Assembly: GCA_009782655.1 (NCBI GenBank) | Contig: WRIQ01000105.1 | Span: 1 to 5,092, forward strand | Direction of reading: 5' to 3' | Source: Prolixibacteraceae bacterium | GTDB taxonomy: Bacteria > Bacteroidota > Bacteroidia > Bacteroidales > Prolixibacteraceae | Length of the DNA: 5,092 nucleotides | Shown: piece after piece, positions 1 through 5,092 of the stretch | How the letters are laid out: every line of letters begins with the position of its first letter | How positions within the stretch are numbered: position 1 is the stretch's first letter | Notes under the pieces: generated by a model | The model's database searches: none | What the model saw: the letters and a program-made list of their open reading frames with translations, nothing else | Told to the model about the DNA's origin: nothing | Translations under genes and position numbers: made by a program

Positions 1-468
1 TTTTCTTTCGCGGCGAATTTGAGCAAGCTCAATCAAAATAGCGTGCGACAGTTCCAGCGCCAACGGCATGTAGTTGTCGGTATCTTTGCAGGCATACCCG
101 AGCATCATTCCCTGATCGCCCGCACCCTGTTCCAACCTATCGGTGCGCTCGACGCCGCGGTTTATATCCGGGCTTTGCTCGTGAATGGCCGACAAAACAC
201 CGCACGAATCTGCATCAAAACGGTATTCGGCTTTTGTGTAGCCTGTTTTCTGAATAACGCGGCGGGCCACTTCCTGCACATCCACATAGGCTTTTGATTT
301 AACCTCGCCGGCCACGATTACCTGTCCCGTGGTAACCAGCGTTTCAATAGCTACTTTCGATGCCGGATCGAATGCTAAAAACTGATCCAGCAATGCGTCG
401 GATATCTGATCGGCAACCTTGTCGGGGTGTCCTTCCGAAACAGATTCGCTTGTAAATAAATAACTCAT
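1..468 (-). CDS. metK: S-adenosylmethionine synthetase, N-terminal part (runs off the window)
   Basis: Cytosolic enzyme that makes S-adenosylmethionine from methionine and ATP, releasing phosphate and pyrophosphate. The first 156 codons are present, and the reading frame is open to base 1, so the C-terminal part lies outside the window. Visible family signatures are [13 protein letters not shown] at residues 5-17 (His14 and Asp16 match the catalytic His and Mg-binding Asp), Glu42 in the position of the K+ ligand, [12 protein letters not shown] at 84-95, QSPDINRGV at 98-106 in the mobile active-site loop, and the nucleotide-binding GAGDQG at 115-120. ATG at 468 is chosen because the conserved N-terminus starts right there, as in E. 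coli MetK. No Shine-Dalgarno is seen, which is usual in Bacteroidota. The gene has its own promoter and a SAM-II-like riboswitch in its leader, pointing to feedback by its product. Family identity is certain. The total length cannot be judged here. Confidence 0.97.
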
Positions 469-486
469 CGTATAAAATAATTATTA

Positions 487-539
487 CCGGAAACCGGAGA
501 TTAAACAAATGGCTGCGGGACAGGGATTGATACAACAGT
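487..539 (-). promoter_or_regulatory. Candidate expression platform of the metK leader
   Basis: Lies between the SAM-II-like aptamer and the metK start. Seen directly on the minus strand: ACUGUU (539-534) is the exact complement of AACAGU (552-547) in the aptamer P2 3' strand, giving a 6-bp hairpin with a 7-nt loop. AUCAAUC (531-525) is the exact complement of GAUUGAU (583-577) in the P2 5' strand. The two pairings nest with each other and exclude P2. Further down, AAUCUC (502-497) can pair with GAGAUU (585-580), and CCGG-UUU-CCGG (497-487) forms a small hairpin before a U-rich stretch ahead of the start codon. I infer that these sequences switch between a SAM-free and a SAM-bound fold. Whether control is by termination or by translation cannot be decided, because there is no strong GC-rich terminator and no clear Shine-Dalgarno. 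Confidence 0.45.
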
Positions 540-545
540 AAAATC

Positions 546-597
546 GACTGTTTTAGCATTTTTTCCTGTGGTTGCAATCAATCTCAAATCCATCCAC
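546..597 (-). promoter_or_regulatory. SAM-II-type riboswitch aptamer upstream of metK
   Basis: SAM-binding RNA pseudoknot in the 5' leader of metK, about 80 nt before the start codon. Read on the minus strand, the SAM-II layout appears in order. P1 is GUGG (597-594) with CCAC (571-568). Loop L1 contains GAUUU (590-586), the U-rich stretch that forms base triples around SAM. P2 pairs GAUUGAUUGC (583-574) with GCUAAAACAGUC (557-546): C574-G557, G575-C556, U555 bulged, U576-A554, U577-A553, an internal A-rich mismatch, then G579-C550, U580-A549, U581-G548, A582-U547 and G583-C546. The conserved UUGCAA, A-rich linker and GCUAAAA are intact. In this class SAM binding stabilises the pseudoknot and lowers expression. 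One oddity is two extra nucleotides between P1 and GAUUU, with only four base pairs in P1. The position before a SAM-synthesis gene supports the call. I assigned it by eye, without a covariance-model score. Confidence 0.8.
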
Positions 598-608
598 GCA
601 GTGTGCCG

Positions 609-616
609 CAAAGTTA
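609..616 (-). promoter_or_regulatory. Bacteroidota -7 promoter box for metK
   Basis: TAACTTTG on the minus strand matches the TAnnTTTG element used by the primary sigma factor of Bacteroidota. Transcription would start near position 600-605, giving a leader of about 135 nt that begins just before the riboswitch P1 stem (597). That placement makes the box credible. I see no convincing -33 TTTG at the usual 19-22 nt spacing; the region there is A/T-rich. Confidence 0.6.
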
Positions 617-764: not shown

Positions 765-1583
765 CTATTTCTCCATTTTCATACGCATTTTCACATTTTT
801 CACCGGCCTGTCGGCGGCGGCGGTTTCAACGGCGGCAATTTTGTCGATGACATCGAGCCCCTCCACCACCTCGCCGAAAACGGTGTAGTTGTCATCCAGA
901 TGGGGCGTGCCGCCAACTGTTGAATATGCTTCTCTCTGTTCCGGAGTGAGCGTATATTTTGGCGTGGCTTCGAAAATGCTGTCGGCGACGATTTGAAACT
1001 TGTAGATTCTTTCCTGAAAAGCGGTTTGATCATTTTGTCGCAGTTGATTCATTTCCTGCTGGTGCGGCATGAAGAGCTCGCGGAGAATATCCTGCTTCTG
1101 CGCATTCTGTTTTTGCATTTCGATTGTGTCCAAACGTCCCGAGCTGAGAACTTCGCCCTGAACAATATAAAACTGGGAACCGCTCGATTCTTTTTCGGGA
1201 TTTACCTGATCGCCCATTCGTGCAGCGGCGAGGGCTCCTTTTTTGTGAAAAAGTCCCGGGACAAATTCGGCGGGAATGGTATATCCGGGGCTGCCATTTC
1301 CCAGTTGCTGCCCTTCGACAGCGTTTTTAGATTGAGGATCGCCGCCCTGAATCATGAATTTTTTGATCACGCGATGGAAAAGCAAGTCGTTGTAAAAACC
1401 TTCGCTAACCAGCTTTTTGAAATTGTCGCGGTGCTGGGGCGTTTCGTCGTACAACCTGACTTTTATTATTCCGTAATCGGTTTCTATGATTACAATATTG
1501 CTGTTGGCAGTCTTGGACGAACTGCTGCATGAAATTACGCAGATAAGAAGCGCAATAACAAGAAAATAAATAAGTTGCTTCAT
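765..1583 (-). CDS. Lipoprotein cyclophilin-type peptidyl-prolyl cis-trans isomerase
   Basis: Enzyme of 272 residues catalysing cis-trans isomerisation of X-Pro bonds, predicted to act as a folding helper in the periplasm. Residues 1-19 form a lipoprotein signal: Lys3, a hydrophobic stretch, then lipobox VISC with Cys19 as the lipidated residue. A Ser-rich tether follows without the acidic residues that mark surface lipoproteins in this phylum, so an inward-facing anchor is inferred. The cyclophilin core starts near residue 30. It shows FHRVIKKFMIQGGDP at 69-83 (Arg71 and Gln79 match catalytic Arg55 and Gln63 of human CypA), GALAAARMG at 116-124, GSQFYI at 135-140, and HLDDNYTVFGEVVEGLDVID at 228-247. 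Human CypA Trp121 is replaced by His228, as in many bacterial forms. About 75 residues (146-220), rich in Gln and charged residues, are inserted between two core strands. The ATG at 1583 is chosen because the signal begins there. A TATATTTG box lies 24 nt upstream. The family call is firm; the substrates are unknown. Confidence 0.95.
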   Translation of the reverse strand: MKQLIYFLVIALLICVISCSSSSKTANSNIVIIETDYGIIKVRLYDETPQHRDNFKKLVSEGFYNDLLFHRVIKKFMIQGGDPQSKNAVEGQQLGNGSPGYTIPAEFVPGLFHKKGALAAARMGDQVNPEKESSGSQFYIVQGEVLSSGRLDTIEMQKQNAQKQDILRELFMPHQQEMNQLRQNDQTAFQERIYKFQIVADSIFEATPKYTLTPEQREAYSTVGGTPHLDDNYTVFGEVVEGLDVIDKIAAVETAAADRPVKNVKMRMKMEK

Positions 1584-1606
1584 TTTATACTCTTTAAATT
1601 TTGTTG

Positions 1607-1614
1607 CAAATATA
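1607..1614 (-). promoter_or_regulatory. Bacteroidota -7 promoter box for the PPIase gene
   Basis: TATATTTG on the minus strand fits TAnnTTTG exactly. Transcription would start near 1600, leaving a short leader of about 15-20 nt before the ATG at 1583. That leader contains AAAGAG about 6 nt ahead of the start codon, a weak Shine-Dalgarno resemblance. A -33 element is not clear; GTTTCC lies roughly where it should be and is part of the imperfect inverted repeat at 1628-1654. Confidence 0.6.
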
Positions 1615-1627
1615 GTGAAAATTGAGA

Positions 1628-1654
1628 GGAAACGGGAGCTTGCCCGCAGTTTCC
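1628..1654. repeat. Imperfect inverted repeat upstream of the PPIase promoter
   Basis: GGAAACGGG (1628-1636) and CCC-GCA-GTTTCC (1643-1654) pair as 6 bp plus 3 bp around a 6-nt loop, with a 3-nt bulge (GCA) on one side. It sits just upstream of the -7 box, across the -33 region of the PPIase promoter, and is a GC-rich island in AT-rich DNA. It could be an operator or simply chance structure. No function can be assigned. Confidence 0.35.
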
Positions 1655-1779
1655 CGAACGCATCCTAAATATATAAATACACGTTTTTTATAAAACGAAA
1701 ACAAATATACTTACAATATCTTTTCGAAAGATTTAACTAAAATAGGCGTATTATTTCGCCGATTCAATAGAAAACGGTT

Positions 1780-1787
1780 TATTTTTG
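1780..1787 (+). promoter_or_regulatory. Bacteroidota -7 promoter box for the deaminase operon
   Basis: TATTTTTG matches TAnnTTTG and predicts transcription from about 1792-1795, a leader of about 40 nt before the ATG at 1834. The -33 region (about 1754-1758) reads TTTCG, an imperfect match. Five-base inverted arms, CGGTT (1775-1779) and AACCG (1789-1793), closely flank the box, which could mark an operator. This would be the promoter for the deaminase, the protease and probably the alpha-galactosidase. Confidence 0.55.
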
Positions 1788-1798
1788 TAACCGCATAA

Positions 1799-1821
1799 AA
1801 ATATGAATAACCTGCATATTT
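1799..1821 (+). repeat. Leader hairpin before the deaminase start
   Basis: AAATATG (1799-1805) and CATATTT (1815-1821) are perfect 7-base complements with a 9-nt loop, ending 12 nt before the ATG at 1834. The stem is AT-rich and therefore weak. It may modulate access to the start codon, but chance is a fair alternative in such AT-rich DNA. Confidence 0.35.
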
Positions 1822-1833
1822 CAGCAAAAACAC

Positions 1834-2292
1834 ATGGAAGATAAAAAACAGACCCTGCTCGACAAGCGGTATTTAAAAATGGCAGCCATCTGGTCGCTAA
1901 ACTCATATTGCAAACGGCGCAAAGTGGGTGCACTGCTGGTAAAAGATAAAATGATAATTTCCGACGGATACAACGGAACGCCATCGGGATTCGAGAATGT
2001 GTGCGAAGACGAAAACTTCAGGACAAAACCTTATGTTCTTCATGCCGAGGCCAATGCCATCACTAAAGTGGCCAAATCGAGTAACAGCAGCGAGAACGCC
2101 ACTTTGTATGTAACTTCGTCGCCCTGCGTCGAATGTTCGAAACTCATCATCCAAGCGGGAATCAGGAGGGTTGTTTTTACCGAAAATTATCATACCGACG
2201 ACGGCGTTAATTTATTGATACGCGCAGGAATTGAAGTAAAAAATGTAGGAATCGACTTATCGTCACTAAAAGAGGAACATGAAGAAATATAA
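1834..2292 (+). CDS. Deoxycytidylate (dCMP) deaminase, zinc-dependent
   Basis: Cytosolic enzyme of 152 residues that deaminates dCMP to dUMP, feeding thymidylate synthase. It belongs to the ComEB/dCMP deaminase branch of the cytidine deaminase fold. Zinc site: His70 in HAEANAI (70-76) with Glu72 as proton shuttle, and Cys98 and Cys101 in SPCVEC (96-101). GYNGTPSGF at 45-53 matches the nucleotide-binding loop that separates dCMP deaminases from tRNA adenosine or cytidine deaminases. The length is typical for the family. The ATG at 1834 lies just ahead of the first conserved helix. It has no Shine-Dalgarno, but a -7 box lies 47 nt upstream. The last 14 bp overlap the start of the protease gene, so co-transcription and perhaps translational coupling are likely. 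Allosteric control by dCTP/dTTP occurs in some relatives and cannot be judged here. Confidence 0.93.
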   Translation: MEDKKQTLLDKRYLKMAAIWSLNSYCKRRKVGALLVKDKMIISDGYNGTPSGFENVCEDENFRTKPYVLHAEANAITKVAKSSNSSENATLYVTSSPCVECSKLIIQAGIRRVVFTENYHTDDGVNLLIRAGIEVKNVGIDLSSLKEEHEEI

Positions 2293-3892
2293 TATTTATA
2301 TACCTGTGCTACTGGCTGTCGCCATGATTGCGGGATTGTTTTTGGGAAACATGCTGGGGCGCAAAAGCCAACCTGTATACAACGGCTCCAGAATGACAGT
2401 CGGCAATAAACTCAACATCACCCTTGATCTGATCGACAAGAAATATGTTGACAAGGTTGAGAGCAAGAAGATCATCGAGAAAACCATTCCCCAGATGCTC
2501 GAAAATCTTGATCCGCACAGTAGCTACATTCCCGCCAAATATATGCAGGAAGTGGAAGAGGAGATGCGGGGCAACTTTTCGGGTATCGGCGTTCGGTTTT
2601 CCATTCAGGAAGATTCGGTGGTAGTTATCGCTGTTATTTCGGGCGGCCCTTCTGAAAACGTGGGCGTCATGCAGGGCGACCGCATTGTGATGGTTGACGA
2701 TACGCTTATTGCTGGTGTGGGCGTGAAGGATGAGCGGGTGCTGAAGCTTCTTCGCGGAATAAAAGGTACCCGAGTGCGCACCAAAAACTACCGCCGCGGA
2801 TTTCCCGAATTGTTGGAATTTGAAATCACGCGCGGCGACATTCCTCTCACCAGCATCGACGTTTCGTATATGATTGACGAAGAGACCGGCTTCGTCAAGA
2901 TAGGGCGTTTTTCGGAACAAACCTATTCCGAGTTTAAAGACAGCATGGACACACTGATTGGCAAAGGCGCAGAAAAAGTGATTATCGACTTGCGGAGCAA
3001 TCAGGGAGGATCCCTTACGGCGGTGGTGCGCATGGTCGACGAGTTCCTTGAGGCGGGCGAACCCATATTGATTACGCGCGGAAAATCGCAACCTGAAAAA
3101 ATTTACAACGCCTCGGACAGAAATGCTTATGCAAATATAAATGTGATTATCCTCATCGACGAGTTTTCCGCATCGGCAAGCGAGATTATGGCCGGCGCCA
3201 TTCAGGATAACGACCGCGGAATTATCGTCGGACGGCGCTCATTCGGCAAAGGGCTTGTGCAGGAACAAACATCGTTTTCTGACGGATCGGCCATCCGCCT
3301 GACCGTAGCACGCTACTACACGCCCAGCGGACGCTGCATTCAGAAACCCTACACCGAAGGAAACGACAAATATTCGGAAGACCTGTACATGCGCCTCCTC
3401 CATGGCGAGATGCTCAATGCCGACAGCATTCACTTTGCCGACTCGCTGAAATATTATACCAAGAACGGACGCCTCGTTTATGGCGGCGGCGGCATCATGC
3501 CCGATATTTTTGTTCCCGCCGACACCACCGGACGCTCCGATTATTACGTGAAAATACATCAACAAAGGCTAAATTACCAGTTTGCATTCCAGTATTCGGA
3601 TCAAAACCGCGAAACACTCAAAAAACTGGGAACCGCACAAGCCATTGAAAAATGGCTTGACAACCAGAATATTATGGATATATTTATCAGGTATGCTGAA
3701 AGCAAAGGCGTTCCATACAGCGAGGAGGGAATGAGGCTGTCGGGCGAAATAATAAAAACGCAGGTAAAAGCCAACATCGCCCAAAATATTTTGGGCGAAG
3801 AAGGATTTTATCCCATCATCCAGCAAATTGACAAAACGCTGCTGAAAGCCATTGACATATCGCGCCAAAATTTATTGGAGGACAACCTGTGA
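2279..3892 (+). CDS. Carboxy-terminal processing protease, peptidase family S41 with PDZ domain
   Basis: Envelope serine protease of 537 residues that cleaves proteins near their C-termini. Residues 5-26 form an uncleaved membrane anchor or signal (no clear signal peptidase site), so the body should be periplasmic. An N-terminal helical segment (about 40-85) leads to a PDZ domain (about 88-180) with GIGVRFS at 102-108 and a GGPSENVGVMQGDRIVMVD stretch at 122-140. In the catalytic part, DLRSNQGG (237-244) is the oxyanion segment, SASASEIMAGAIQD (297-310) holds nucleophile Ser299, and FGKGLVQ (322-328) holds general base Lys324 with Gln328. The 25-residue Ser-Lys spacing matches E. coli Prc. 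GGGGIMPDI (402-410) and a helical extension to the C-terminus are characteristic of Bacteroidota members. The segment usually reading NPGG has Gln242 instead of Pro. The ATG at 2279 overlaps the deaminase gene and has AGAGGA only 2 nt ahead of it. Its substrates are unknown. Confidence 0.95.
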   Translation: MKKYNIYIPVLLAVAMIAGLFLGNMLGRKSQPVYNGSRMTVGNKLNITLDLIDKKYVDKVESKKIIEKTIPQMLENLDPHSSYIPAKYMQEVEEEMRGNFSGIGVRFSIQEDSVVVIAVISGGPSENVGVMQGDRIVMVDDTLIAGVGVKDERVLKLLRGIKGTRVRTKNYRRGFPELLEFEITRGDIPLTSIDVSYMIDEETGFVKIGRFSEQTYSEFKDSMDTLIGKGAEKVIIDLRSNQGGSLTAVVRMVDEFLEAGEPILITRGKSQPEKIYNASDRNAYANINVIILIDEFSASASEIMAGAIQDNDRGIIVGRRSFGKGLVQEQTSFSDGSAIRLTVARYYTPSGRCIQKPYTEGNDKYSEDLYMRLLHGEMLNADSIHFADSLKYYTKNGRLVYGGGGIMPDIFVPADTTGRSDYYVKIHQQRLNYQFAFQYSDQNRETLKKLGTAQAIEKWLDNQNIMDIFIRYAESKGVPYSEEGMRLSGEIIKTQVKANIAQNILGEEGFYPIIQQIDKTLLKAIDISRQNLLEDNL

Positions 3893-3916
3893 TTGAAAAA
3901 CCATAAACCTGTTACC

Positions 3917-5092
3917 ATGAAACTATCTGTAAAACAAATGATGCTTTCGGGCGCGATTTTTTTCGCAGCTTCCGTCGTTGCGACCGCCCAAACCGTCATC
4001 TCCATTGAGACACAGCGCAATGCCATGGCATTTCAAGTTGAACAAAACAACGACTTGAATATGATCTACTACGGGAAGAAACTCTCGTCGGCAGAGAGCT
4101 ATCGCGAAATAAACGCGCAATTCGGAGCGCGCAACTCTGCCGATTATACAAAAATGCTGACGTCGGCATACACATCGTCGGGGTCGCGCAACCTTGTAGA
4201 ACCGGCCATAGCCGTGACCCACGCCGACGGCAACAACTCTTTGGACTTGAAATATGTAAGCCACGAAATAAAAAAAGAGAAAGCGGGCGTCGAGATTTTG
4301 AAAATTTCATTGAAAGACCCTGTTTACGCTTTTGAGGTGGATTTATTTTACAAATCATTTTTCGAAGAAGACATGATTGAGCAATGGAGCGTTATCCGAC
4401 ACAGCGAAAAAGGCGCCGTCACCCTGCACAAATATGCGTCGGCCAACCTGACGTTGAGGGAAAACAGCTATTGGCTGCGTCACTATCACGGCGACTGGGC
4501 CAAAGAGATGCAGGCCGAAGAGGATAAGCTCGCGCATGGCATCAAAACGCTTGACACAAAATTGGGTGCGCGCGCCAACCTTTTCCAGCCGCCGTCGTTC
4601 ATGGTTTCCATTGACAAGCCGGCCACCGAAGATGAGGGCGCGGTGCTGTTCGGCTCGTTGGAGTGGAGCGGCAATTTCAAAATCGATTTTGAAGTCGACC
4701 CCACCGGCAATCTCCGCATCATCCCGGGAATTAACAATTTTGCTTCCGATTACAGCCTCAAATCCGGTGCGGAATTTGAAACGCCGCCTTTTGTGCACAC
4801 GCTGTCGCACGAAGGAAAGGGAAGAGCCAGCCGCAATTTTCATGATTGGGCCCGCAAACACAAAATCCTCGACGGCATGGGCGAAAGGCTCACACTGCTG
4901 AATAACTGGGAAGCCACCTATTTCGATTTCGATGAAAAGAAACTGACCGAATTGCTGAAGGATACCAAAAAGCTGGGCGTCGATCTTTTTCTGCTCGACG
5001 ACGGATGGTTTGCCAACAAATATCCGCGCAACAACGACCGCGCAGGCTTGGGCGACTGGCAGGAGAATAAGACCAAATTGCCCAGCGGAATC
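3917..5092 (+). CDS. Secreted alpha-galactosidase, glycoside hydrolase family 36, N-terminal part (runs off the window)
   Basis: Hydrolyses terminal alpha-1,6-linked galactose, as in raffinose, melibiose or galactomannan side chains. The first 392 codons are present, of about 720-740 usual in the family. A signal peptide covers about residues 1-25 (Lys2 and Lys6, hydrophobic core, cleavage suggested at ATA-QT), so a periplasmic or exported enzyme is expected. The N-terminal beta-sandwich domain fills about 30-310, including EPAIAV (95-100), LDLKYVSHEI (109-118), HGDW (191-194) and HGIKTLDTKLG (207-217). The catalytic barrel starts with LNNWEATYFDFDE (328-340), followed by FLLDDGWF (358-365), whose Asp pair 360/361 binds galactose in GH36 enzymes, and LGDW (378-381). 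The nucleophile and acid/base lie beyond the window. The ATG at 3917 is chosen for the signal peptide; a TTG at 3893 is possible but less likely. The gene starts 24 bp after the protease stop, without a separate promoter, suggesting read-through. No SusC/SusD genes are in view. Confidence 0.93.
   Translation, partial: MKLSVKQMMLSGAIFFAASVVATAQTVISIETQRNAMAFQVEQNNDLNMIYYGKKLSSAESYREINAQFGARNSADYTKMLTSAYTSSGSRNLVEPAIAVTHADGNNSLDLKYVSHEIKKEKAGVEILKISLKDPVYAFEVDLFYKSFFEEDMIEQWSVIRHSEKGAVTLHKYASANLTLRENSYWLRHYHGDWAKEMQAEEDKLAHGIKTLDTKLGARANLFQPPSFMVSIDKPATEDEGAVLFGSLEWSGNFKIDFEVDPTGNLRIIPGINNFASDYSLKSGAEFETPPFVHTLSHEGKGRASRNFHDWARKHKILDGMGERLTLLNNWEATYFDFDEKKLTELLKDTKKLGVDLFLLDDGWFANKYPRNNDRAGLGDWQENKTKLPSGI

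Follow-up and report, generated by a model that had tools for sequence, protein, structure and literature searches.

A SAM-II aptamer in the metK leader of a Prolixibacteraceae bacterium and a candidate anti-aptamer strand downstream of it

Introduction

Does the leader of metK, the SAM synthetase gene, carry a SAM-II riboswitch in this genome, and by what step would such a switch act on the enzyme that makes its own ligand? The DNA analysed here, called the window, is a stretch of 5,092 nucleotides. A sequence-only reading had placed a SAM-II-type fold at 546–597 of the minus strand, bounds that coincide exactly with the first base of P1 (597) and the last base of P2 (546). As early as 2005, a passage of PMC1273637 mentioned SAM-II in Bacteroides thetaiotaomicron, and the entry "SAM-II long loops: Bacteroidetes, marine" in Table 1 of a 2010 study (PMC2864571) corresponds to Rfam family RF01726. 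These passages do not mention a link of the Bacteroidota SAM-II to metK; the supplement of PMC2864571 may treat the Bacteroidetes members and the genes next to them.

Results

Identification of the aptamer upstream of metK

We searched the whole 5,092-base window with cmscan against all 4227 Rfam families, with E up to 10. RF01726, SAM-II ("long loop"), matched 603–543 of the minus strand at 56.0 bits, above its gathering score of 44 (E 3.9e-9), and the match covered model positions 1–60 of 60. Compared with the model consensus, two loop bases are inserted and one linker base is deleted. A single further Rfam match was reported in the window, at E 9.4. Our own covariance model, R2, scored the aptamer at 64.3 bits, the window being one of its training rows. 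The features of the leader are as follows.

1–468, minus strand: metK, SAM synthetase, first 156 codons, running off the window edge (NCBIfam/Pfam)
543–603, minus strand: SAM-II aptamer, RF01726 (Rfam covariance-model match)
594–597, minus strand: P1 5' strand, GUGG (sequence and covariation in relatives)
590–585, minus strand: L1, GAUUUG (read from the sequence)
574–583, minus strand: P2 pseudoknot 5' strand, GAUUGAUUGC (sequence and covariation in relatives)
568–571, minus strand: P1 3' strand, CCAC (sequence and covariation in relatives)
546–557, minus strand: P2 pseudoknot 3' strand, GCUAAAACAGUC, with U555 bulged (sequence and covariation in relatives)
609–616, minus strand: TAACTTTG, a match of the TAnnTTTG type, 11 nt before P1

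The protein of the downstream gene matched TIGR01034 of NCBIfam (1.8e-63) at 214.7 bits, below the whole-protein cut-off of 309.4, the gene being cut by the window edge, and it also matched Pfam PF00438 and PF02772. The aptamer thus lies in the 5' leader of a SAM/methionine gene. It ends at 543, 74 nt before the start of metK; measured from the last base of P2, the start codon is 77 nt away. P2 consists of nine pairs including one G-U, with U555 bulged and A578 facing A552/A551.

The SAM-II-type fold of the sequence-only reading was borne out, as were its GUGG/CCAC P1, its nine-pair P2 and its bulged U. The L1 motif that it gave as GAUUU is present, and its extent is one base longer, GAUUUG. 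That reading had proposed a scan with the SAM-II family RF00521 and with SAM-V. The SAM-II assignment held through RF01726; RF00521 (the alphaproteobacterial SAM-II, SAM_alpha) and the SAM-V family were both absent among the window matches with E up to 10. Together, the covariance-model score, the covariation in relatives and the gene position support the assignment of 543–603 as a SAM-II aptamer in the metK leader.

With the RF01726 "long loop" family, the window shares P1, the L1 sequence GAUUUG, the UUGC / GC(U)AA core, the A-rich linker and the Bacteroidota host. The alphaproteobacterial SAM-II (the metA element, RF00521) has the same plan of P1 and pseudoknot and the same presumed ligand. 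According to passages of PMC1273637 and PMC9373788, that element is found in front of methionine/SAM genes such as metA and metZ, and a terminator is often predicted after it, whereas in the window the downstream gene is metK, no intrinsic terminator was found and RF00521 was not reported.

Distribution of SAM-II at metK in Bacteroidota

The best 80 metK relatives in genome contigs, 79 with Bacteroidota names and one with a Verrucomicrobia name, were scanned with Rfam. By its metK relatives, the host of the window would probably be a member of Bacteroidales. In 48 of the 80, RF01726 preceded metK on the strand of the gene (E up to 0.1), and 45 of these matches were above the gathering score. 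Two loci carried SAM-I/IV (RF01725) upstream of metK instead of SAM-II (L021, 1351–1446; L038, 1327–1432), and no SAM family was detected upstream of metK in the other 30 with E up to 0.1. RF00521 was matched by one of the 80 loci, L057, at 29.7 bits, below its cut-off of 36 bits.

We also scanned whole genomes. In a sample of the phylum, at least 45 of 296 genomes had a single RF01726 match with E up to 0.001, which exceeded the cut-off in 41 of them, and metK adjoined it in 44 of the 45. The exception was the weakest match (L133, 31.9 bits). In a sample of 198 genomes from the order of genome G002, at least 129 had a match, 127 of them over the cut-off. The stretch contained metK for 125 of the 127 loci read, the other two being L290 (32.7 bits) and L200; one match at a contig end (G380) was outside the loci read. 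Scans of more than 40 genomes, namely those of the phylum, of the order and for SAM-I, used stricter filters that lose weak matches, and their genome counts are therefore lower bounds. L133 and L290, with no metK in the stretch read, are probably chance matches.

Thus, metK is the regular target of SAM-II in the sampled Bacteroidota and no oddity of the window, as indicated by the 48 loci among the metK relatives and by the phylum and order samples. Bacteroidota SAM-II is almost solely a metK switch in these samples. The sequence-only reading had regarded the metK and Bacteroidota setting as unusual, which the data do not support: SAM-II of the Bacteroides group has been in print since 2005, metK is its usual partner in these samples, and the window aptamer is a further instance of an already known riboswitch class, ordinary for Bacteroidota.

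L200 (contig C269 of genome G387) is a second SAM-II copy in its genome and lies approximately 66 nt before the start of a MetH-like frame, a call made by eye through comparison with the MetH-like protein from the SAM-I loci described below. By eye, a complement of its aptamer loop is again present in the tail, AUCAAUC to GAUUGAU. Some aptamers in the collection are 77–117 nt long with apparent extra hairpins, again by eye, located in the P1-P2 linker (e.g., L108, L111 and L128) or in the L1 loop (L009, L014, L117 and L125). The SAM-II fold therefore seems to tolerate large insertions at these two places.

Covariation of P1 and P2

Covariation was evaluated on an alignment of 26 sequences and on one of 98 distinct sequences, the latter comprising the order sample plus the window and fitted to a model with P1 only. 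P1 was paired in 100% of cells in both alignments, and two of its four pairs were changed on both sides, from U-A to A-U, G-C or C-G and from G-C to A-U. The inner four pairs of P2 were paired in 98–100% of cells and hardly varied. The outer P2 was paired in 64% of cells among the 26 sequences and in 73% among the 98 (36% and 27% unpaired), with both-side changes in three of five pairs; because of these proportions, the outer P2 is not universal. The compensatory changes that the earlier reading had suggested looking for were thus seen in P1 and in the outer P2.

In the alignment of 26 sequences, 87.3% of cells were paired versus 83.2% after shuffling, both-side changes occurred in 5 pairs versus 3.3 (11 of 500 shuffles), and the P1/P2 covariation score was 0.146 versus 0.081 (0 of 500). 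With 98 sequences, 91.0% of cells were paired, both-side changes occurred in 5 pairs versus 3.1 (19 of 500), and the score was 0.110 versus 0.073 (0 of 500). The number of further pair types in this larger alignment was hardly above that of shuffles (12 versus 11.2; 181 of 500). Sliding the structure by 2 or 3 columns gave scores of 0.090 and 0.094, near the true value of 0.110.

A promoter-like box immediately upstream of P1

For the analysis of leaders, 210 sequences were collected; after removal of 2 that could not be parsed and 1 duplicate, the remaining 207 fell into 81 clusters at 65% identity. Seven of the 125 metK-linked order loci had been left out because of a pattern mismatch, and the aptamer is readable in four of them.

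TAnnTTTG, which we take to be the Bacteroidota promoter box, occurs 9 times in the whole window versus 3.75 expected, which makes a single match weak, so that TAACTTTG (616–609, minus strand) counts mainly through its conservation. In 68 of the 81 leader clusters, a TAnnTTTG box occurs in the 40 nt that precede P1, at a median distance of 13 nt. It is found in the adjoining 40 nt further upstream in 2 of 81 clusters, and in 3% of mononucleotide shuffles. The box that had been noticed about 11 nt before the aptamer was confirmed, and, given the position of such boxes before P1 across clusters, the aptamer is probably the first element of the metK mRNA.

Complementarity between the leader tail and the aptamer 5' half

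When the leaders were read side by side, the stretch following P2 was in many of them complementary to the 5' half of their own aptamer, in a register that varied by lineage. To quantify this, we computed duplex energies between the aptamer 5' half (P1 5' strand to UUGC) and the tail, using dinucleotide-shuffled tails as the null. Among 92 leaders, the mean z was -1.67, with 43% at p<0.05. When tails were grouped at 60% identity, the 17 resulting clusters had a z of -1.64 (8 of 17 at p<0.05; reversed control 0.10), and own segments were below foreign ones (p 0.001). In the 81 clusters, the z was -1.54 +/- 0.15, with 30 of 81 at p<0.05 (Fisher 4e-24). The reversed segment gave a z of -0.04 and upstream DNA 0.08 (79 clusters), and segments from foreign lineages paired with the same tail gave -0.58. 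Own segments were below foreign segments with p 8e-10, indicating that the tail strand co-evolves with the aptamer 5' half.

The strand of the best duplex, taken over all 81 clusters whether significant or not, has its median at 18–38 nt into the tail, 44 nt before the start codon, and the pairing is spread over the aptamer 5' half. Predicted leader folds were less stable once the real tail had been replaced by shuffled ones (z of the real tails -2.07; 39 of 81 at p<0.05), and 14.5 bases of the aptamer 5' half were paired with the tail versus 9.9 in shuffles (20 of 81 at p<0.05). The tail alone was slightly more structured than shuffles (z -0.49). In 67 of 81 clusters, the best fold containing P1 was less stable than the unconstrained fold by 3 kcal/mol or more, in a comparison made without a shuffle control and with pseudoknot and ligand outside the energies. 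These data make it likely that leaders of this family form a SAM-free "anti-aptamer" hairpin with the aptamer 5' half.

Pairings of other parts of the aptamer with the tail were also evaluated. In the window, an AACAGU/ACUGUU pairing of the P2 3' strand with the tail was noticed by eye; it was dropped as a general feature because such pairing was not above chance (z 0.00 in the 81 clusters, -0.20 in the 17 clusters). Pairing of this kind was nominally significant in 25% of the 92 leaders, many of them from one group of similar sequences (L108–L123). The P1 3' strand with the linker was barely above chance (z -0.23, Fisher 0.12).

In the window, the proposed strand is the following.

513–538, minus strand: proposed anti-aptamer strand, core AUCAAUCCCUGUCCCGCAG at 531–513 (predicted leader fold)

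In the predicted ligand-free fold, 531–513 pairs with 601–577. The leader 469–603 has a minimum free energy of -31.8 kcal/mol, matched in stability by 5 of 200 shuffles (z -2.21), and the best fold holding P1 has -21.5 kcal/mol. The duplex of the window does not reach significance by itself (p 0.28 and 0.27 in two runs), nor does its base-pairing probability (p 0.13); its minimum free energy with the real versus shuffled tails does so nominally (p 0.049). The signal from the window taken singly is thus weak to moderate, and the proposal of an anti-aptamer strand for it leans on the family. The strand lies downstream of the aptamer, outside the 60-position Rfam model RF01726. No description of such a strand was found in the literature searched.

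Proposed mode of regulation and alternatives

We consider it probable that the aptamer, near the 5' end of the metK mRNA, mediates feedback of SAM on its synthetase, with the anti-aptamer hairpin as the alternative fold and the choice made co-transcriptionally. Transcription would start a few nucleotides before P1, so that the aptamer would be made first. When SAM is plentiful, the P2 pseudoknot would close and lock the aptamer, the next 77 nt up to the start codon would remain largely unpaired, and metK expression would be lowered. When SAM is scarce, the strand 513–538 would pair with the P1 5' strand, L1 and the P2 5' strand, the binding site would be dismantled and metK would be expressed. 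That SAM lowers metK expression is what product feedback and the known SAM-II switches would lead one to expect. Rather than an intrinsic terminator, the effector would most likely be the loading of Rho onto the freed leader or an altered stability of the mRNA.

As an alternative output, the metK element could repress translation, ribosome loading being obstructed by the P2 3' strand or by the pseudoknot as in compact SAM-II and SAM-V switches; this is the likeliest of the alternatives, yet we judge it rather unlikely. The SAM-II of S. meliloti metA is reported in PMC9373788 to control translation from a Shine-Dalgarno sequence that lies 74 nt before the start used there. The 77 nt between the end of P2 and the start codon here are a similar distance, but no sequence resembling Shine-Dalgarno was seen in the P2 3' strand, and the last 35 nt before the start are rich in A and U (A.41, U.38, G.08; 81 clusters). 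Bacteroidota mostly initiate translation without Shine-Dalgarno pairing, which also counts against ribosome blocking. Moreover, the start-codon region is only faintly tied to the anti-aptamer strand (z -0.38; 5 of 81 at p<0.05; Fisher 0.007), which favours control during transcription. The greater predicted stability of the anti-aptamer fold relative to the best fold containing P1 is a further reason to favour co-transcriptional choice. In our view, choice during RNA synthesis, with Rho or decay as effector, is thus more likely than ribosome blocking. Base composition gives Rho no independent support: over the 80 nt that precede the start codon, the median C/G was 1.55 in metK leaders with SAM-II and likewise 1.55 in 32 that lack SAM-II. 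An intrinsic terminator, as in many alphaproteobacterial SAM-II leaders, is very improbable as the output here. Predicted terminators are common after proteobacterial SAM-II in passages of PMC1273637 and PMC2258182, but under a strict perfect-stem rule none was found in the 81 leader clusters, although five shuffled sets gave 3, 0, 0, 0 and 1, so that few would be expected anyway. None was found at 400–800 of the window, and U is only marginally more frequent in the 10 nt that follow the best anti-aptamer helix than in the tail (.42 versus.38).

Two further explanations concern the strand and the aptamer themselves. The downstream complementarity could be a by-product of a purine-rich aptamer followed by a pyrimidine-rich leader, with no switch involved, and the tail is indeed rich in U and C and poor in G; in addition, the duplex is not significant in the window or in 51 of the 81 clusters taken individually. 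We nevertheless regard a by-product as improbable, since the signal remains under controls that keep composition (dinucleotide shuffles and the reversed segment, z -1.54 versus -0.04) and own segments beat foreign ones. Least probable of all, at the edge of what we would consider, is that the element is a SAM-V or SAM/SAH riboswitch instead of SAM-II. SAM-V shares the pseudoknot core and is said in part of PMC6061858 to occur in Bacteroidetes, and SAM/SAH switches precede metK in Rhodobacterales according to passages of PMC2864571, but RF01726 was the sole SAM family matched in the window with E up to 10 and was matched in full. The co-varying anti-aptamer strand, in leaders where no terminator was found, gives a concrete and testable idea of how a Bacteroidota riboswitch may act.

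SAM-I and SAM-II in the same genomes

SAM-I (RF00162), which has a different fold, is found in the same phylum as the window SAM-II. It was above the cut-off in at least 45 of the 52 genomes with a SAM-II at metK, in contrast to passages of a 2007 survey that report no single species with both SAM-I and SAM-II (PMC2258182). Ten SAM-I loci were chosen from 30 that were read. The first protein after SAM-I was MetX-, MetY- or MetH-like in 8 of the 10 (one MetH-like, three of the MetY type matching TIGR01326 over its cut-off, and four MetX-like), and the remaining two were one NifS-like and one thioredoxin-like protein. Neither the MetH-like nor the MetX-like frames reach the curated cut-offs. The MetH frame is visibly incomplete, as are some of those of MetX, and two MetX-like pieces (L139 and L155) had no Pfam match.

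Among 23 of the 45 genomes, chosen for proximity on one contig, the nearest pair of SAM-I and SAM-II was 124 to 14252 nt apart. SAM-I follows SAM-II on the same strand by approximately 1.4 kb, about one metK length, in G140, G144, G192 and G244. In three Polaribacter loci (L010, L029 and L030), a divergent SAM-I is located upstream of the metK leader, before a gene that is MetY-like by eye from its N-terminus. The coordinates are 1127–1251 and 1376–1436 in L010, and 929–1053 and 1283–1365 in L029.

We tentatively propose, at somewhat less than even confidence, a wider reading for the metK SAM-II of Bacteroidota. It would be a shared platform with a co-evolving strand approximately 44 nt before the start, in which the pseudoknot competes with a long 5' hairpin during transcription and an unstructured leader brings about silencing through Rho or decay, in place of an intrinsic terminator or a blocked ribosome site. 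With SAM-I located ahead of methionine-synthesis genes in most of these genomes, SAM-I and SAM-II would split the pathway into "make methionine" and "make SAM". If so, two unrelated SAM receptor folds would divide one pathway between its methionine-making and SAM-making parts.

Other features of the window

The remaining genes, identified by profile matches, are located within 765–5092.

765–5092, minus strand: cyclophilin-type PPIase
765–5092, plus strand: cytidine/deoxycytidylate deaminase-like, S41 peptidase and GH36/melibiase-like

Between the PPIase gene and the metK leader, an inverted repeat, ACACAGCGTT ... AACGCTGTGT, was seen by eye at 701–742. This repeat, which has no clear U-tract, is possibly the end of the upstream transcript.
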